Position numbers and translations under genes: made by a program. The notes below the pieces were generated by a model that worked only from the letters and a program-made list of their open reading frames with translations, ran no database searches and was not told where the DNA came from. A stretch of 64,000 nt of DNA from NCBI RefSeq assembly GCF_002277955.1, contig NZ_CP018477.1, positions 4,237,206 through 4,301,205 on the forward strand, read 5' to 3'. Positions 52,224-59,382 of the stretch are shown piece by piece. This stretch comes from Thermogutta terrifontis. GTDB taxonomy: Bacteria; Planctomycetota; Planctomycetia; Pirellulales; Thermoguttaceae. Numbering within the stretch: the first letter of the stretch is position 1; each line of letters begins with the position of its first letter.

Positions 52224-53420
52224 TCAGGTTTTGGCGAAGAGTTTGAACAAACCTGCACGGCCCGGTTTCTTACTCGTTTCCTTGGCCTGCTCGCCGCAGA
52301 GGGCCTCTGCCAGTCCCACGATAGCGGTTGTCACGGCGGAGCGCGGTGCACATTCCAGGAGCGGCACGCCGTTATTGCGGGCTTCACTGCACGCGCGATA
52401 ATCGTTGGGAATCTGCCAGAAGATCTCGCGACCAATGATCTCCTGGGCCTTCTTGAGATTGATCTGCCCGCTGTCCATTCCCAGCCGATTGACGACGATT
52501 TTGACCTTCTCGGCCATGCCCGGCATGTTACTGAAGGACATCATCAATCGCACCACGTTGCGGAGGCAGGGCAGGTCAAGCTGCGTGACCAGCAGCACGT
52601 GCTGGGCCATCTCCAGGGCCATCATGTCAACCGGGGTAAACGCCTTGGAGAGATCCAGCACAAGATGCGTGAAACTGGCCTTCAGCAAGCCGATAACCCG
52701 CTGGAGATCTTCCGCGCTGATCAGAGAGACATCCTCGAGTTGCACGGGACGGGGGAGCAGAAACAATCCTGAAGCGTGCTTGGTCAGGGACCGTTTGAGA
52801 AGCGAAAAGTCGAGCCGGGTGACGTTCTGCGCGACATCGACGATCGTGTAATCAGGAATTGCGTCCAGGAGCACATCGGCATCACCCAAACAGAGATCCA
52901 GGTCGGCCAGAACCACCGTGTTCTTGTCGTTGCGGGCCAAAGCACAACCCAAATTGACGGCAATTGTGGAAACCCCTACGCCCCCTGTCACCCCCGCCAC
53001 GGCAATGACCGTGGATCCCCGCGCCTTGGAGTCTCCCTGACCGAACCGCCGTTCCTGAATCCGGTTGATGGCTGCCAGCAGATCGTCGATGCGGACAGGC
53101 TGAAGGAGGAATTCCTTGGCCCCCGCACGCATCGCCTGAAGAATCACCGTGCCATCGTGGGTGGAACTGACAACGAAAATGGCGCAGTCCGGCAATTGCT
53201 GGCTAACTCGCGACACCAGCTCCAGCGCCCGCTCTCGATCATGATCGATGGCGACGATCCCAATATCGGGCTGAGTCTGCGCCACCACATCACTGAAAAA
53301 CTCGTAACGTGAGCACTCCGCCTCCAGCCAAATCATGTCAAGCCCCAACAGGAGCCTCTTGAGTTCGTCCCGCCCCGTATCGTTGGGGTCCACGATGGCC
53401 ACTCGCAGAACGTTACTCAT
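52224..53420 (-). CDS. cpaE: CpaE/TadZ pilus assembly ATPase-like protein
   Basis: CpaE/TadZ localises the Flp/Tad pilus machine. The 398-residue protein has an N-terminal receiver-like domain (about 5-125) with AIVDPNDTGRDELKRLL and VVSSTHDGTVILQAMRAGAKEFLLQP. The ParA/MinD-like ATPase has a deviant Walker A, VAGVTGGVGVST, then VVLADLDLCLGDADVLL and LVLDLSKAFTP. In the receiver domain the phosphoacceptor position is IAIDHD. It is the last gene of the minus-strand Tad cluster here, 364 bases after cpaC. cpaF, tadB and tadC, which usually follow, are not in the window. Confidence 0.92.
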   Translation of the reverse strand: MSNVLRVAIVDPNDTGRDELKRLLLGLDMIWLEAECSRYEFFSDVVAQTQPDIGIVAIDHDRERALELVSRVSQQLPDCAIFVVSSTHDGTVILQAMRAGAKEFLLQPVRIDDLLAAINRIQERRFGQGDSKARGSTVIAVAGVTGGVGVSTIAVNLGCALARNDKNTVVLADLDLCLGDADVLLDAIPDYTIVDVAQNVTRLDFSLLKRSLTKHASGLFLLPRPVQLEDVSLISAEDLQRVIGLLKASFTHLVLDLSKAFTPVDMMALEMAQHVLLVTQLDLPCLRNVVRLMMSFSNMPGMAEKVKIVVNRLGMDSGQINLKKAQEIIGREIFWQIPNDYRACSEARNNGVPLLECAPRSAVTTAIVGLAEALCGEQAKETSKKPGRAGLFKLFAKT

Positions 53421-53784
53421 AAGCCAGCCAGCACCTTTGCTCGAAGGAAGTTAATCAAAACGGTTGCGGAATTTGATCCTCAACCTCCCGATGACGCTGC
53501 GAGGCAAGCCCTCGGATCGTCCGCCCTATCCGGAGCTCTGCTGCTAATGCCAAAAACAGAGCTGACAGGGTGGAAGGAGGCTGCTTCGCCAGTCACTCTT
53601 CGGCACACTCTCCCCCCACCATTAAATATGGGTCACTTTTTGATAAGATGCGAAAAAATTGGGTGCGAGGAACGAGCAAAAGCCGATGGTGTGATCGGCC
53701 GTTGGCATCCACACCGGCGATAACTTGGGCCGTGTCGATTCTGGTGTGAAACCTGTTGAATCCGGGCTCTTCCGGGTGGATGGA
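53421..53784. other. Gap between cpaC and cpaE
   Basis: 364 bases with no credible gene on either strand. The gap is long for an operon and may contain a separate promoter for cpaE. An AT-rich patch around 53620-53650 (minus) could be part of it. Confidence 0.35.
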
Positions 53785-55530
53785 TCAGTTGTCGTATCCG
53801 ATGTCACCCTTAAATCCCGGCAAGCTGCCCGGGGAAGCCGGTTTGCTCTGCGCACCCGCGGTTTGCGCAACCGGACGTGTTCTGGACGTGGTGGGCGTCA
53901 CCACTCCCTGCTTGCCGAAACTGACAGGGGCACCTGTCGGTGCTGAGGACTGGGCGCCTGAGGACACCGGGGGCAGCGGGGCGGGAGGGGCGAGTTCAGG
54001 GGCGGCTGGTGCCGCAGGCCCAGCAGGTGTCGGCTGAGGAAGTGGTGTCGGTTGATTGTCCCGCAAAATCGTCGCCTGTCCAGCCTGTTTAATGTCTTCG
54101 ATTTGAGCCGAACCGCTGTTTTCCGGTGGGCAACACCGCGGGACTTCGATGTAGCCCTTCATGTAAAGTTCCCAATCGCTAGGACTGGCGGTTTGGGTAC
54201 CCGGTCCACATGGGGGTACCTCCTCCGGATTCATCGCATCGACAAGTTCAGGGGTCACAAGGATGAGGAGTTCGATGTCGTTGTTCTGCTCGGCCACCCG
54301 CCTGAATGCCGCGCCGATGTAGGGAACATCCGAAAGAAACGGCACACCGCGACGCTGGGCTTCGACACGGGTCTCCACCAATCCCGCAATGGCGAGGGTT
54401 TGTCCCGCTTGCATTTCCACACCGGTATCTACTTCTCGGACCCGAAGCCCCGGCACTGTCGTCGAATTGATGACCACACTTCGAGAAGTATCGATCTCAC
54501 TGACCCGCGGACGCACTTCCAGCCGGATCCGGCCATTACCCAAGACAATTGGGACAAAATCCACCTGGGTGCCATACTTCTTGTATTCGATGGAGACCGT
54601 GCCCAGGCTCTGCGGGACGATGATGGGAAATTCCCCGCCGACCTGGAAGAAGGCCGGCCGACCGCTCACCGTCACAAGGGTTGGTTCGGCGAGAACCTTC
54701 ATGAGATTGTCCTGGCGGAGGGCCTCGAGTACGCCGAAAAACGCGTCGTTCCCGTCAAGCACACTGAAGAAAAACGTTTCGCCGCCGGACGTGAAGGCAC
54801 TCGCCGCGGTACCACTCCCAGCATTCCCCGGGGCCACTCCCGTGAGCAGGCCGCTGACGCTGGACCGAATGACGTTCTGCCCGGAAATCTGGCTCCAGTC
54901 GAAACCGAGTGAGCGGAGTTTGGTCCGGGAGACTTCCATGACCTTCACGTGGAGAAGCACTTCATGGACGCCGCCCAGCGTTAGATTGTTGATCACCCGG
55001 GGATAGTACTCCTCGGCAATCTGGACGATGCGGCTGACGTGCTCCTGCTGGTCCACGTAGCCGGAAAGGAGGACGCCGCTGGCAATCGGAGTGACTTTGA
55101 TCGAGCAGTTGGGAAACTGCGCCTTCAGGAGCATCTCCAGCTCCCGGGCGTCCCCGAACACAATCACATCCACAGTATAGATGTTGCCCTGATCGTCCCA
55201 TAAATTGACCTGGGTTACGCCAGGCTTTTTGGCAAATATCTGAATCTGATTGGGGGAAAGGGCGGTGAGGTCCAGGATTTCAGGGTTGTTCACCTGGGCC
55301 TGCGGAATCCGCCTGTCCAACGTGAGAATCCGGCTCGTATTGACGGTCAGTTCCTGGCGCTGTGAGGGACCGGTGACGCGGCAAACAACGCCATTTCCGG
55401 TGCTTTGGCCGGATGGGACAGGGGAACCACCCTCAAAAGAATACGTGTTACCGCCTGGGTGCAGCAGCAGAGCGAAAATCAGCGCGAGCAGCCCACTCAA
55501 TTTAGCAAAGTGGGGGAGATGCCTGATCAT
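53785..55530 (-). CDS. cpaC: CpaC/RcpA outer-membrane secretin of the Flp/Tad pilus
   Basis: CpaC forms the outer-membrane ring through which the Flp pilus passes. The 581-residue protein has a signal peptide (about 1-30) and the pilus-formation N-terminal domain, with SRILTLDRRIPQAQVNNPEILDLTALSPNQI. A BON/secretin N1 part includes NCSIKVTPIASGVLLSGYVDQQEH. The secretin C-domain has VLAEPTLVTVSGRPAFFQVGGEFPI, GTQVDFVPIVLGNGRIRLEVRP and GVPFLSDVPYIGAAFR. The last 100 residues are a Pro/Ala-rich disordered tail. It follows cpaB by about 170 bases on the same strand. Confidence 0.94.
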   Translation of the reverse strand: MIRHLPHFAKLSGLLALIFALLLHPGGNTYSFEGGSPVPSGQSTGNGVVCRVTGPSQRQELTVNTSRILTLDRRIPQAQVNNPEILDLTALSPNQIQIFAKKPGVTQVNLWDDQGNIYTVDVIVFGDARELEMLLKAQFPNCSIKVTPIASGVLLSGYVDQQEHVSRIVQIAEEYYPRVINNLTLGGVHEVLLHVKVMEVSRTKLRSLGFDWSQISGQNVIRSSVSGLLTGVAPGNAGSGTAASAFTSGGETFFFSVLDGNDAFFGVLEALRQDNLMKVLAEPTLVTVSGRPAFFQVGGEFPIIVPQSLGTVSIEYKKYGTQVDFVPIVLGNGRIRLEVRPRVSEIDTSRSVVINSTTVPGLRVREVDTGVEMQAGQTLAIAGLVETRVEAQRRGVPFLSDVPYIGAAFRRVAEQNNDIELLILVTPELVDAMNPEEVPPCGPGTQTASPSDWELYMKGYIEVPRCCPPENSGSAQIEDIKQAGQATILRDNQPTPLPQPTPAGPAAPAAPELAPPAPLPPVSSGAQSSAPTGAPVSFGKQGVVTPTTSRTRPVAQTAGAQSKPASPGSLPGFKGDIGYDN

Positions 55531-55698
55531 CCGTGATCACCCTATCGTAATGAGGTTTTGGCACTCCAATAACAACAGCGTCGCGATTGGAATCTCTCCG
55601 CATCCATGCATTGAGTCCAACCGGCGCAACACTCCCTAGTCCTTATCGGCAAAAGTCGAGCAACTGGTAAATTTGATTCAATTCTGCGGTCCAAGACG

Positions 55699-56820
55699 TC
55701 ACTGATCGCTGCCCCGCTCTGGAACTGGGCTATCCGTTGGAGGATGCAAGTCCCCATCTTGAGGTGGGGCGCTTTCTGAGGTTGGCGGTGCGGCCGTCGG
55801 AGCGGGCTCACCGGCGGGTAAGGCAGAACCTCCGTTGTTCGCGGCCCGCCAGATCGTTCCCATCGCGTCCGGCCAAACGTGGTCCGTATCAGCCTCCAGC
55901 ACCACGTCATTCACCTGAGAACCGAGGAGGAGTCGCATAGCCCAGGTTTGGCCACCTGAGCCCCTGGTGGAGACGGGAGTGGCACGGGCAGAATTGGTCT
56001 GGTTGCTCAGGAACTGGGCGAAAGCGTCCTCTTTTCCAGGGGGTTCACTTCCCGGGACGATCTCTTTTTCCGGATCCCCTCCTTGGGTGGGAAGTCCCAG
56101 CAACTCCATGGGATCAACCCCCTTGGTTTCCACCGGATCATTGTCCCCCAGACCCCGCATGACCAGACGAATCTGGCCAAGTTCCGTCGCCGCAGTCAAA
56201 ATTTCTGCTTGCTCCGGAGTCACCAGGAGGGAAACCGTCTTGGCCTGAATCGATTTTTGATTCTTCTCGTCACCGGTCAAGGCGTATTTGTCATCAACGG
56301 CAAAAACTCTAACGTTCTGCAAAATTGTTCTGGTGTAATCCTTGGGGATGCCCTTGGAAGGCATGGCGGGGAAATGCACGACCACATCCACGCGGTCGCT
56401 GGGCCGTAACATGCTAGCACTACCGCTAACCGGGTCCACCTTCACCGAAACCACACGGTAACCTTTGGGAATCCATGGGGCAGCGCCCGCATCGACGGCC
56501 CCTTTCTCGAGCAACTGGGCGTCCAGAATGGGAGAACCCTTGTAGATTTTGGTTTTGGTGCGTCGTCCCTCGACGTCCTCCACCTTAAACAGCGCACCCT
56601 CTGGAATTTTGCTCTTTGGCCAGTCTTCCAGTTTAATTTGGGTAATCTTTACAGGATCCCCCATGGGAATATCTTCGGCCGCCACCACAATCGCTTTCAT
56701 TTCGACAACGGGTGCTGGGGTAGCTCGATCCCGTGTGGCCAGCACCTGCTGTACTCCAACCGCAGCCACCAACCCGCAACCAAGTGCCAGTGCCAGAAAG
56801 AAGATCGACCTTGTGCGCAT
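55699..56820 (-). CDS. cpaB: CpaB/RcpC Flp pilus assembly protein
   Basis: CpaB is a periplasmic SAF-domain protein needed for Flp pilus assembly. The 373-residue product has an N-terminal signal/anchor (RSIFFLALALGCGLVAAVGVQQV) and an SAF domain, with IVVAAEDIPMGDPVKITQI, PILDAQLLEKGA, GYRVVSVKVDP. The RcpC-like part follows, with LRPSDRVDVVVHF, LLVTPEQAEILTAATELGQIRLVMRG. A Pro/Ser/Ala-rich tail follows. Gene order cpaA-tadE-cpaB-cpaC-cpaE is preserved. Confidence 0.93.
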   Translation of the reverse strand: MRTRSIFFLALALGCGLVAAVGVQQVLATRDRATPAPVVEMKAIVVAAEDIPMGDPVKITQIKLEDWPKSKIPEGALFKVEDVEGRRTKTKIYKGSPILDAQLLEKGAVDAGAAPWIPKGYRVVSVKVDPVSGSASMLRPSDRVDVVVHFPAMPSKGIPKDYTRTILQNVRVFAVDDKYALTGDEKNQKSIQAKTVSLLVTPEQAEILTAATELGQIRLVMRGLGDNDPVETKGVDPMELLGLPTQGGDPEKEIVPGSEPPGKEDAFAQFLSNQTNSARATPVSTRGSGGQTWAMRLLLGSQVNDVVLEADTDHVWPDAMGTIWRAANNGGSALPAGEPAPTAAPPTSESAPPQDGDLHPPTDSPVPERGSDQ

Positions 56821-56874
56821 ACGACAGAATCTCGCCTTTTCTGGAGGATCGACAAAACAATCATTGGGGCGTGT

Positions 56875-57414
56875 TCACTGCACGGCTTCCCGCCGCATGG
56901 TTGTTGTGGCGCGCAGCTCCACCCCCCCTAAAAACATTGGCGAGGGAAGCCAACTCACTTGACGAAAAGGCACAGTAACCGTAACAGTCACCGGCTCCCC
57001 GTAACCCGCAGAATCGATCGGATCCGGCGTAACCGTTACAGTTGCCGAGCGAATTCCTCCGCTGGCCAGGTAATTTTCCACCACGCTGATGACTTCTGCC
57101 GTGGTGGCCCCTTGAATGATCGCCCGACGAGCACCCTCCCGCGACGCGTTGGTGATCACCTGCTGGACCATCACCATGCGGCCAAACTCGATGAGGCCCA
57201 GCACCAGCAGGAAGAAAATAGGAGCCACAACGGCAAACTCCACCACCGCTACCCCAGCAGGACGCCCGCAGTCGCCGCATTTTTTGCGCCGGCCTGGCTC
57301 TCCATCACGCTGGGCGGTCCGTGGCTTGGTTCGACACTTCCTCGCGAAAAGACGCTCGAAGATTTCTCGGTCAGGAAGCACCGCATGGAAAGAGAAGACG
57401 TTCCTGGCTCGCAT
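56875..57414 (-). CDS. tadE: TadE-like pseudopilin
   Basis: TadE family proteins are minor pseudopilins of the Tad pilus. The 179-residue protein has a basic, Cys-containing leader (RRKKCGDCGRPAG) and then the diagnostic GVAVVEFAVVAPIFFLLVLGLIEFGRMVMVQQVITNASREGARRAI helix, starting near residue 52. A beta-rich C-terminus ends with RATTTMRREAVQ. It lies 16 bases after cpaA and 54 bases before cpaB. Confidence 0.92.
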   Translation of the reverse strand: MRARNVFSFHAVLPDREIFERLFARKCRTKPRTAQRDGEPGRRKKCGDCGRPAGVAVVEFAVVAPIFFLLVLGLIEFGRMVMVQQVITNASREGARRAIIQGATTAEVISVVENYLASGGIRSATVTVTPDPIDSAGYGEPVTVTVTVPFRQVSWLPSPMFLGGVELRATTTMRREAVQ

Positions 57415-57430
57415 AGATCCACCTCACCAT

Positions 57431-58027
57431 TCAAACGGGGAAAAGCATACCGTTGACAAGAAAATACGCAATCGTGCCGATGGCGATTGGTATCCCATAG
57501 GGCAGAAGAAGCATTCGCGGTTTCCGCTCGGCTGCCAGCTCGGCCAACCGTTCAGGGTGCCGAACCACGAGAATCTCATAGAGAATAGCAAAAAACTGCC
57601 GCGTGTGTTTCCAGGCGGCTCCCCGTGCAATCACCATGGCGACTGCGATCACGGCACCCACAATGACGGTGATCACGAACGCCCAGAGCGTGTGTGTCAT
57701 GCCGATCCAGGCCCCCACTCCCGCCAGGAGTTTCACATCGCCCGCCCCCATTCCTCCGATAGCGTAGGCCGGGAGCAGCAGCCCCAACCCCACTGCGGTA
57801 CCTAAGAGGCTCGACCACACGCCGGGCCAGCCAAACCAGAGTCCACTCATCACCCAGCCGCTGATAATCAAGGGAAATGTAAGCCAGTTGGGAACCTTGA
57901 GCTTGGTCCCGTCAATCCAGGCGGCCCAAACCAACACCACGCTGACAAACCAGCAGATTCCCCAAACGGTCCAGGGATGGTTTGATGCTTGGAGTACGCG
58001 TTCCAGCATTTGATCACACTCCGTCAA
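57431..58027 (-). CDS. cpaA: Prepilin peptidase CpaA/TadV (A24 family)
   Basis: The aspartic protease that cleaves Flp prepilin and pseudopilin leaders. The 198-residue polytopic protein has the two catalytic Asp motifs: AAWIDGTKLKVPNWLT (about 35-50) and GGMGAGDVKLLAG (GxGD, about 91-103). About five hydrophobic helices are seen. It precedes tadE with a 16-base gap. The N-methyltransferase domain of PilD-type enzymes is absent, as normal for TadV. Confidence 0.93.
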   Translation of the reverse strand: MTECDQMLERVLQASNHPWTVWGICWFVSVVLVWAAWIDGTKLKVPNWLTFPLIISGWVMSGLWFGWPGVWSSLLGTAVGLGLLLPAYAIGGMGAGDVKLLAGVGAWIGMTHTLWAFVITVIVGAVIAVAMVIARGAAWKHTRQFFAILYEILVVRHPERLAELAAERKPRMLLLPYGIPIAIGTIAYFLVNGMLFPV

Positions 58028-58219
58028 AAGTGCCCTACGGTGCTCTTGATGGTGTCTTCATTGCAACGTTTTTTAATAAGACGATCCGCCCATAAAAACT
58101 TGGCGCGGTCGCCTCTCGACATTGATCATTCGCTTCGCACTTCATGGGATCCCACAGAACAATTCGCGTGCGCCTCCTTGGGGAAACCTCCATCGGCACA
58201 CAGTTCCCCTGCCGGGTCA

Positions 58220-58330
58220 TCACATCCGGACTGTCAGCAGGTATTGGAGGACGGCCGCCAGAAGCGTCAGCCACAGGACGAACAGCGAAAAGGCCTCGCT
58301 CGCCAGTTCGGGAGGAATAGCTGGATTCAT
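58220..58330 (-). CDS. 36-residue membrane ORF between flp and cpaA
   Basis: A short frame from ATG 58330 to TGA 58220 encodes MNPAIPPELASEAF followed by a single hydrophobic helix (SLFVLWLTLLAAVLQYLL) and TVRM. GAGGAG lies 9 bases before the ATG. It sits between the flp terminator and cpaA on the same strand, so it should be the first gene of the cpaA-tadE-cpaB transcript. I do not know a family. It could be a small pilus-linked membrane peptide. Confidence 0.6.
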   Translation of the reverse strand: MNPAIPPELASEAFSLFVLWLTLLAAVLQYLLTVRM

Positions 58331-58428
58331 GGTCGAATCTCCTCAGTCGGGATTGACATCGTTTAAACTCGATCTTTTGGGGTGAATACATGATCCGTGC
58401 GTGATCTCTCTATGAAAAAGTGTAGGTC

Positions 58429-58467
58429 AAAAAAACACCCCTCGGAGCGATTTTTGACTCCGAGGGG
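58429..58467 (-). terminator. Intrinsic terminator of the flp gene
   Basis: On the minus strand CCCCTCGGAG/CTCCGAGGGG (58467-58458 and 58447-58438) forms a perfect 10-bp stem with a 10-nt loop. It is followed by GTG and seven T (58435-58429). It lies 65 bases after the flp stop and separates high-level pilin expression from the assembly genes. Confidence 0.93.
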
Positions 58468-58531
58468 CGATGTCATCCCGCTCTACGGCCCGACTCTCCG
58501 GACCAGAGCCCGCCGGCCATGTCAGCAGACA

Positions 58532-58720
58532 TCAGTTGCCGGTTGTGCTCTGGATGGAGTCGGTCACGCTTTGGAAGGTGTCACGCGCGGCGGTACCCAG
58601 AGATGAGATCGCCGTGAGACAGACGATCACGATCAGGGCCAGCATCACCGCGTACTCCACAGCGGTCGGGCCATCTTCCGAGACGAGGAAACGGTGCAAC
58701 TTCTGAGCAAGCGACTTCAT
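58532..58720 (-). CDS. flp: Flp family type IVb pilin
   Basis: The major subunit of the Flp/Tad adhesive pilus. The 62-residue preprotein has a short basic leader (MKSLAQKLHRFLVSEDG), the G/xxxxE-type cleavage region GPTAVEYAVMLALIVIVCLTAISSLG with Glu and Tyr at the conserved positions, and a small C-terminus. ATG 58720 has a GGAGGA site 5 bases upstream. Its 5' leader is about 500 bases long and contains a GEMM-I riboswitch. Its own terminator follows. It is the first gene of the Tad cluster. Confidence 0.95.
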   Translation of the reverse strand: MKSLAQKLHRFLVSEDGPTAVEYAVMLALIVIVCLTAISSLGTAARDTFQSVTDSIQSTTGN

Positions 58721-58751
58721 ACAGTTCCTCCAAGACAAGCGGGACATGTGA

Positions 58752-58986
58752 TCAGCCTTGATCCTCTTTCAAGACCGATCCAGGAAAAGGGGGATCGACG
58801 GTACACGCCACGCTCCCGTGACGCCGGCCTGTCCCGTACCGTCTGCATCCCGACAACACCCAAAACCGATGCCTCTTCCCCGTAGGCCGCGATGCCCGTC
58901 CGCCGTATCGGCAGACGCGCCTCGCCGTCCCCGGCACGTCCCGGTTGTCGGCAGGCAGAAGCCTGAAGGTCAGCCTTCAGACCGCA
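58752..58986 (-). other. Structured RNA leader between the riboswitch and flp
   Basis: Several perfect stems can form in the transcript. CTGAAGG/CCTTCAG is at 58963-58980, with a 4-nt loop. CCGACAAC (58951-58944) can pair with GTTGTCGG (58857-58850). An 8-bp GACGGTAC/GTACCGTC pair is near 58788-58844. None is followed by a U-run, so control may be at translation or RNA stability rather than by intrinsic termination. No coding frame is credible. Confidence 0.5.
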
Positions 58987-59079
58987 TCATCCCTTCGGCA
59001 GCCCGGCGACCGGATGCGACCACCCGGCCCGTAGCTTTGCGCCCCGGCCTTACGACCGGTTTGCCTTTATCGAGGATGA
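58987..59079 (-). promoter_or_regulatory. Cyclic-di-GMP-I riboswitch (GEMM-I)
   Basis: Read on the minus strand the 93 bases contain the GEMM-I core in order. P1 is UCAUCCU/GGGAUGA (59079-59073 with 58993-58987). GGCAAACC follows. P2 is CCGGUC-GUAA-GGCCGG, capped by a GNRA loop. Then come GCGCAAAGC with the ligand-stacking A, ACGGGCC, a P3 arm, and GGUCGCCGGGCUGCC. The base equivalent to G20 of the Vibrio Vc2 RNA is G, as in c-di-GMP rather than cGAMP binders. It lies 266 bases before the flp start, within its leader. Confidence 0.88.
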
Positions 59080-59224
59080 GGCGACAGGCCGTTGGCGACA
59101 GGGCTCTCGGGGACCACCCACCGAGTTGCCAACCCTGTCTGGCGACGACCCTTCGGCCGTCCTCTCGGCAGCCCATCGAGTCCAGCGTCTTCTCGCTCAC
59201 TCTCAAAGGCCGCCTCTGTAATGA

Positions 59225-59252
59225 AAAATAGGTCATGTATTCGGCTTGTCAA
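59225..59252 (-). promoter_or_regulatory. flp: Sigma-70-type promoter for the riboswitch-flp transcript
   Basis: On the minus strand TTGACA (59252-59247) and TATTTT (59230-59225) are 16 bases apart. A start near 59218 would give a leader of about 140 bases before the riboswitch and about 500 bases before flp. The bases between (59080-59218) are also rich in possible stems, for example GACAGGG/CCCTGTC near 59100-59150. Confidence 0.6.
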
Positions 59253-59382
59253 ACGAAAAACTTTAGATCGCCACCAAGAAACAGAGGCCTCGATTGTAAC
59301 TATGGACGACCTGTTCTTTCCACATTAACGCTGGAAGGGATTACACCGCGCCGCAACACGGCTCGGCAATCTCGTTTTTAGC

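Follow-up and report, generated by a model that had tools for sequence, protein, structure and literature searches.

In the leader of the flp pilin gene of Thermogutta terrifontis, a c-di-GMP-I-type riboswitch is well supported because of the covariance-model scores, the covariation of its helices and its linkage to flp in related genomes, the best-fitting family for the aptamer being the subfamily c-di-GMP-I-GGC (RF03167). The whole stretch of DNA analyzed, of 64,000 nucleotides, is called the window. Comparison between relatives shows, at the level of sequence, the aptamer with its conserved link to flp and also a locus-specific complementarity between the 5' strand of helix P1 and a downstream motif, referred to as anti-P1. 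From this we infer riboswitch control of flp, where P1 versus anti-P1 is most likely the switch, with a moderately supported switching partner. The whole explanation, in which a leader with a c-di-GMP aptamer acts through P1 and anti-P1 as an ON switch for flp, is considered probable.

The aptamer and its place before flp

A first-pass annotation of the window had proposed a c-di-GMP-I riboswitch at 59079-58987 of the minus strand, located between a TTGACA-N16-TATTTT promoter and flp, and both the RNA and its place were recovered. A cmscan search with Rfam 15 over 58700-59300 gave a full-length RF03167 match at 59074-58993 (minus strand) with 74.4 bits and E 8.1e-18, the cut-off being 59 bits, and RF01051, the model for which the annotation had recommended a search, scored 70.9 bits at the same place, above its cut-off of 35 bits. 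The genome, a single contig of 4,810,751 bases, has one RF01051 match, before flp, and both RF03167 and our own aptamer model R2 match only at the flp aptamer. The features of the locus are the following:

59225..59252, minus strand: sigma-70-type promoter TTGACA-N16-TATTTT, with a like pattern in the flp leaders of relatives
59071..59082, minus strand: P1 5' strand and its upstream extension, GCCUCAUCCUCG, which would also serve as 5' strand in the putative anti-P1 helix
58993..59074, minus strand: c-di-GMP-I-GGC aptamer, from RF03167 and RF01051 scores and covariation
58988..58997, minus strand: P1 3' strand, CGAAGGGAUG, from aptamer covariation
58871..58881, minus strand: putative anti-P1 3' strand, GGGGAAGAGGC, from locus-specific complementarity and the predicted fold of 58860-59095
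58791..58852, minus strand: element 2, a conserved RNA hairpin with the bulge ACAGGCC here, from the match of model R1, covariation and relatives
58725..58731, minus strand: ribosome-binding site GGAGGAA, from sequence
58532..58720, minus strand: flp, Flp/Fap pilin of 62 aa (PF04964, E 4e-9)
57431-58027, minus strand: prepilin peptidase, tad gene behind flp (Pfam)
56875-57414, minus strand: TadE, tad gene behind flp (Pfam)
55699-56820, minus strand: RcpC/CpaB, tad gene behind flp (Pfam)
53785-55530, minus strand: secretin, tad gene behind flp (Pfam)
52224-53420, minus strand: CpaE-like protein, tad gene behind flp (Pfam)

All the parts listed in the first-pass annotation are present, namely P1 (CAUCCUCG/CGAAGGGAUG, 59078-59071 with 58997-58988), followed by GGCAAACC, P2, CGCAAAGC, the P3 arm and GGGCTGCC. 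The P2 loop of the window is GUAA, a GNRA tetraloop, which by eye is kept on P2 by most, not all, relatives. In an alignment of 32 sequences, 94.1% of the cells in the aptamer helices are paired and 15 of the 26 pairs are changed on both sides, the covariation being 0.203 against 0.142 (sd 0.008) for shuffles and at most 0.101 for slid versions. Moreover, the equivalents of the ligand-contact positions G20, A47 and C92, in what we take to be Vc2 numbering, were mapped by hand and are invariant in 32/32 aligned aptamers, in agreement with the G assigned earlier to the first of them. An A at the G20 position marks cGAMP-binding riboswitches. Also, five GGDEF matches are found in the genome, and the three displayed carry by pattern the GGEEF and GHxxGD signatures, of which one residue presumably tells against cGAMP synthesis in these domains.

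Upstream of the aptamer, the segment 58500-59400 has two promoter-like sites against 0.2 expected from shuffles. A pattern search, run without a chance control, detected a promoter-like pattern in 50 of the 54 flp leaders with enough upstream sequence. In 45 of the 50, the pattern precedes the aptamer by 120-180 nt, and in 37 of the 50 it carries the extension GAC[AC]TA. Between promoter and aptamer (59211-59083), additional hairpins are predicted by folding (GACAGGG...CCCUGUC), and the length of this part of the leader is similar in most relatives, its sequence, by eye, not. The flp start at 58720 lies about 270 nt past the aptamer; a second in-frame ATG is present at 58747, 27 nt away, and GGAGGAA stands just before the ATG at 58720. 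A window search detected no intrinsic terminator in the leader. Among the nine Pfam-scanned ORFs of the tad cluster (52224-58720), CpaF, TadB and TadC are absent. The closest named Flp record is that of a Thermogutta MAG, with 95%.

The search for the same arrangement in relatives, suggested in the first-pass annotation, revealed a frequent association. In 63 of 99 genomes, a set that contains the own one, the RF03167 model finds 87 matches at E up to 0.001; 52 of these genomes are above the cut-off, and 14 control genomes have no match. In 58 of the 87 loci, a profile made from the Flp of the window detects an Flp ORF that closely follows the aptamer in the same orientation. Conversely, 89 Flp genes above the Pfam cut-off are found in 63 of the 99 genomes, and 58 of them are preceded on their own strand, at no more than 700 nt, by RF03167 (median distance 266.5 nt), with at least one aptamer-preceded gene in 49 of the 63 genomes. 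Within 700 nt, RF03167 is missing for the remaining 31/89, and for at least one of these (in genome G025) R2 recovers an aptamer on the same contig that RF03167 missed. For the best 80 of 498 named Flp loci, a set that overlaps the 99 genomes, R2 detects an aptamer in 54, of which 27 are identical to ones already counted; the aptamer-bearing loci include those of Bythopirellula polymerisocia, Botrimarina colliarenosi, Lacipirellula limnantheis and Adhaeretor mobilis. One contig binned as Candidatus Nealsonbacteria (L096) encodes a planctomycete-like Flp (77% identity) and is perhaps mis-binned. In a sample of the phylum, RF03167 occurs in 135 of 392 genomes, 81 being above the cut-off, and in the family labeled f63 (G147, G168, G219, G313 and others) many genomes have at least 11 matches each.

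In the 29 of 87 RF03167 loci without an Flp ORF just downstream (among L013-L085), the longest ORF was chosen as the downstream gene; it matches PF13400 (Tad) in 19 of the 29 and Tad_C in 18, and at single loci it encodes surface proteins with RTX repeats or Ig/cadherin repeats. By eye, at least 10 of these leaders have a short hairpin GCAACC...GGUUGC right after the aptamer and directly before the ATG, which looks like a sequestration of the ribosome-binding site. Also, some genomes with an flp aptamer have extra copies before Tad proteins (for example, G008, G016, G039, G043 and G057). Planctomycetes frequently switch between a swimming and an attached state, and no account tying their pilus production to c-di-GMP was found in the literature searched. 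The aptamers before flp (49 of 63 genomes) and before Tad proteins would constitute a small, testable c-di-GMP regulon, for which T. terrifontis, a cultured thermophile with a single aptamer copy, would offer a clean test.

The aptamer is of a known kind, and its conserved place before flp was not found reported. The annotation had considered the circuit undescribed in a planctomycete, which does not stand for the RNA, because the genome paper of T. terrifontis R1 (Front Microbiol 2017;8:2140, PMC5673643) names in a list, for the same strain, a single cyclic di-GMP-I riboswitch (RF01051), and stands for the flp position in the literature searched. The entry agrees with the flp aptamer in family, genome and the single match there; however, it is a name in a list, given in the available text with neither place nor target and with the word "pilin" occurring 0 times, and the position before flp comes from the present analysis. 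The same paper states that on xanthan gum, set against trehalose in its RNA-seq, flagellar and pilus proteins were for the most part up-regulated. Literature searches by title on riboswitches, c-di-GMP, Tad pili and planctomycetes found no published riboswitch before flp, and the texts on c-di-GMP-I-GGC that were searched for the name do not mention planctomycetes. Compared with riboswitches of the c-di-GMP-I (GEMM-I, RF01051) and RF03167 families, the flp aptamer shares a full-length match above both cut-offs, the GNRA-capped P2 and the mapped contacts, whereas the aptamers found here are, in one order, mostly tied to flp and Tad genes, and the leader is long and includes both a putative anti-P1 strand and a distinct conserved hairpin.

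A proposed P1/anti-P1 switch and its direction

Residues 59082-59071 (GCCUCAUCCUCG) are complementary to the purine-rich segment 58881-58871 (GGGGAAGAGGC), located 3' of the aptamer at about 110 nt in the window, the putative helix comprising 10 pairs that flank an A-A mismatch and include one G-U. Transcription from the promoter at 59252-59225 would produce a leader of ~500 nt, if its start is placed from the promoter, holding the GGC-type aptamer, the anti-P1 strand, the conserved hairpin and the ribosome-binding site. In the absence of ligand, the P1 5' strand would pair with the anti-P1 motif and P1 would be undone. Binding of c-di-GMP would hold P1 and leave the anti-P1 motif free, and this ligand-bound state would permit flp expression, the pilin being made at high c-di-GMP. 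In fold predictions, the free fold of the isolated segment 58860-59095 contains anti-P1, and a fold constrained to P1 is less stable by 11.7 kcal/mol at 37 °C, by 7.6 at 60 °C and by 6.4 at 65 °C; the predicted fold of the whole 507-nt leader has neither a clean P1 nor a clean anti-P1.

Direction is not readable from the family, since class I c-di-GMP switches of both signs exist (PMC6366702). An ON switch appears to be favored with fair confidence because of the role of the Tad/Flp pilus and because a pilin riboswitch that is ON is reported elsewhere (PMC6366702). This is the class II riboswitch Cdi-2-4, located before the type IV pilin gene pilA1, which is ON with ligand and which resembles the present case in being a c-di-GMP riboswitch before a major pilin gene. 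However, Cdi-2-4 is a class II RNA from a Gram-positive host that affects a type IV pilus through transcription termination (PMC6366702), whereas the flp leader has a class I aptamer, a Tad/Flp pilus and no terminator found. The opposite sign, where c-di-GMP stabilizes P1 and lowers flp expression and the anti-P1 pairing is the permissive state, is less likely but deserves serious weight: the sequence gives no direction, and the seven functional class I switches reported for C. difficile are all OFF, one from B. thuringiensis being ON (PMC6366702). Nonetheless, adhesion is generally expected to go up with c-di-GMP, and in Caulobacter an enzyme that makes c-di-GMP leads to more Tad pilus-mediated attachment when induced at a low level and to less when induced more strongly (PMC6581867).

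Evidence for the pairing and for a regulatory role

Segments like the P1 5' strand and anti-P1 occur in many flp leaders, and the anti-P1 motif was anchored with a plain sequence alignment that predates the discovery of the pairing. In 31 distinct loci, the anchored duplexes of each locus with its own partner average -18.48 kcal/mol, compared with -16.16 (sd 0.47) when the partners are permuted (z -4.97, 0/5000), and in 47 loci z is -5.51; P1 itself gives z -2.42 in the same test. The controls are null, z being -0.20 further upstream (n=31), -0.50 for the Shine-Dalgarno region (n=24) and -0.36 for element 2 (n=24). For 29 loci of another choice, anti-P1 has z -4.27 and the other partners are null. 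Also without signal are the first 30 nt of the transcript against the P1 5' segment (z -0.03) and the anti-P1 strand against the 60 nt after element 2 (z -0.23). Sequestration of the Shine-Dalgarno sequence by the P1 5' strand (UCCUC with GAGGA) was considered and rejected, own pairs being no better than permuted ones (z -0.50), in a test of low power because the motif hardly varies.

When the partner was searched over 150 nt with no anchor, the signal is weaker, with z -2.29 (63/5000) in 27 further named loci and z -1.82 (185/5000) in 54 loci; in the named set, z is -0.76 when the outer half is taken by itself. With another scoring, the unanchored values are 1.94 and 1.97, or 3.42 (1/5000) combined, and 2.24 (72/5000) for the 40 most different segments. 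In shuffles within each locus, the own pairing is among the best 5 of 100 in 9 of 31 loci when the P1 side is shuffled and in 15 of 31 when the other side is. By columns, the covariation of anti-P1 in 27 sequences is modest, 0.206 against 0.171 (sd 0.016), reached in 8 of 500 shuffles, with slid versions at or below 0.131; for changes on both sides, the figure is 77 of 500, five distant rows looking misaligned in the alignment. Neither scanning the registers nor searching for a helix column by column pointed to a single clear register, in our opinion because the length of the internal loop varies.

These results bear on whether the complementarity is a by-product of two conserved motifs, one pyrimidine-rich and one purine-rich, and not a helix, which we consider unlikely. 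For this reading speak the conservation of both motifs, the strength of cross-locus duplexes (-16.2 kcal/mol) and the weaker unanchored, shuffled and column-wise tests. However, own pairs beat permuted ones in 5000/5000 draws, and some distant relatives have another sequence on both sides, for example L134, where UGCGUCAUCAUCCUCG faces CGAGAUGAUACGCA.

An aptamer with no regulatory effect on flp, being a relic or acting on another transcript, is improbable. Its distance of about 270 nt from the start codon, the failure to find either a terminator or Shine-Dalgarno sequestration in the leader and the flp leaders that have no aptamer are consistent with such a case, but the similar spacing from promoter to aptamer in 45/50 leaders with a promoter-like pattern, the covarying aptamer helices and the locus-specific complementarity of anti-P1 speak for selection on the whole leader. 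Finally, sensing of another dinucleotide such as 3',3'-cGAMP is very improbable in view of the G at the G20 equivalent in 32/32 hand-mapped sequences and the signatures of three of the five GGDEF domains, even though cGAMP-binding GEMM-Ib riboswitches exist (PMC8835794).

Element 2, a second conserved hairpin

Element 2 is a hairpin located after the anti-P1 strand and ahead of the ribosome-binding site. It is about 60-70 nt long and has three stacked stems, and its 5' bulge carries a near-invariant GCAGGCC. Its structure score in 16 seed sequences is 0.453 against 0.241 (sd 0.022) for shuffles and at most 0.152 for slid versions, a score that leans towards structure because the seed was picked for clean structure. 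RNAalifold on a first wide alignment recovered the upper stem (7 pairs) only. The copy in the window, outside the seed, matches our model R1 at E 5.9e-4.

R1 detects element 2 at E up to 0.01 in 42 of the 58 flp loci, 16 of them being seeds, and in none of the 29 flp-less aptamer loci; at E <0.001, it matches 28 of the best 80 of 498 named Flp loci, a set that overlaps the former. Over the 99 genomes, 34 matches are found in 33 genomes, the weak match of the window not being among them, and all 34 are located 92-116 nt before an Flp match, 16 being seeds, which were taken from flp leaders by choice, and 18 not. In the 392 genomes of the phylum sample, with 13 candidates scored per genome, one genome has a match, and it belongs to the own family.

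No match to element 2 was found among the 4227 models of Rfam 15 over 58700-59300 at E up to 10, nor in 18 related loci at E up to 1. The comparison covered the Rfam models; the Rhodopirellula-1 motif (2010) appears in PMC2864571 without an Rfam number. Element 2 is best described as a candidate new RNA family, uncatalogued, whose position is precise and which also occurs naturally in leaders that lack the aptamer, and it deserves its own study.

Three flp leaders (L198, L199 and L201) have element 2 with no aptamer match at E up to 10, which refutes element 2 as an obligate expression platform of the aptamer. Element 2 is a separate element of the flp leader, found both beside the aptamer and in its absence. 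The GCCUG of the aptamer was ruled out by eye as a pairing partner of GCAGGCC, because the aptamer side varies and GCAGGCC hardly does, and either arm of element 2 against the 60 nt after it gives no pairing signal (z 0.08 and -0.62). That the leader is a two-input RNA device, where element 2 also senses a second ligand or a pilus-assembly protein, is a doubtful proposal; if true, the pilin output would depend on both c-di-GMP and a second signal.

In L198, a like promoter and CATTACAGAGGC lead directly into element 2. The motif AGAGGC stands at 59217-59212 and 58876-58871 of the window, and in several leaders it is found both close to where the transcript presumably begins and within the anti-P1 motif. 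The aptamer-less leader of L198 looks like the loss of the stretch between two AGAGGC copies, and since the motif stands at both places, loss of the riboswitch by recombination between them is conceivable, as a guess.
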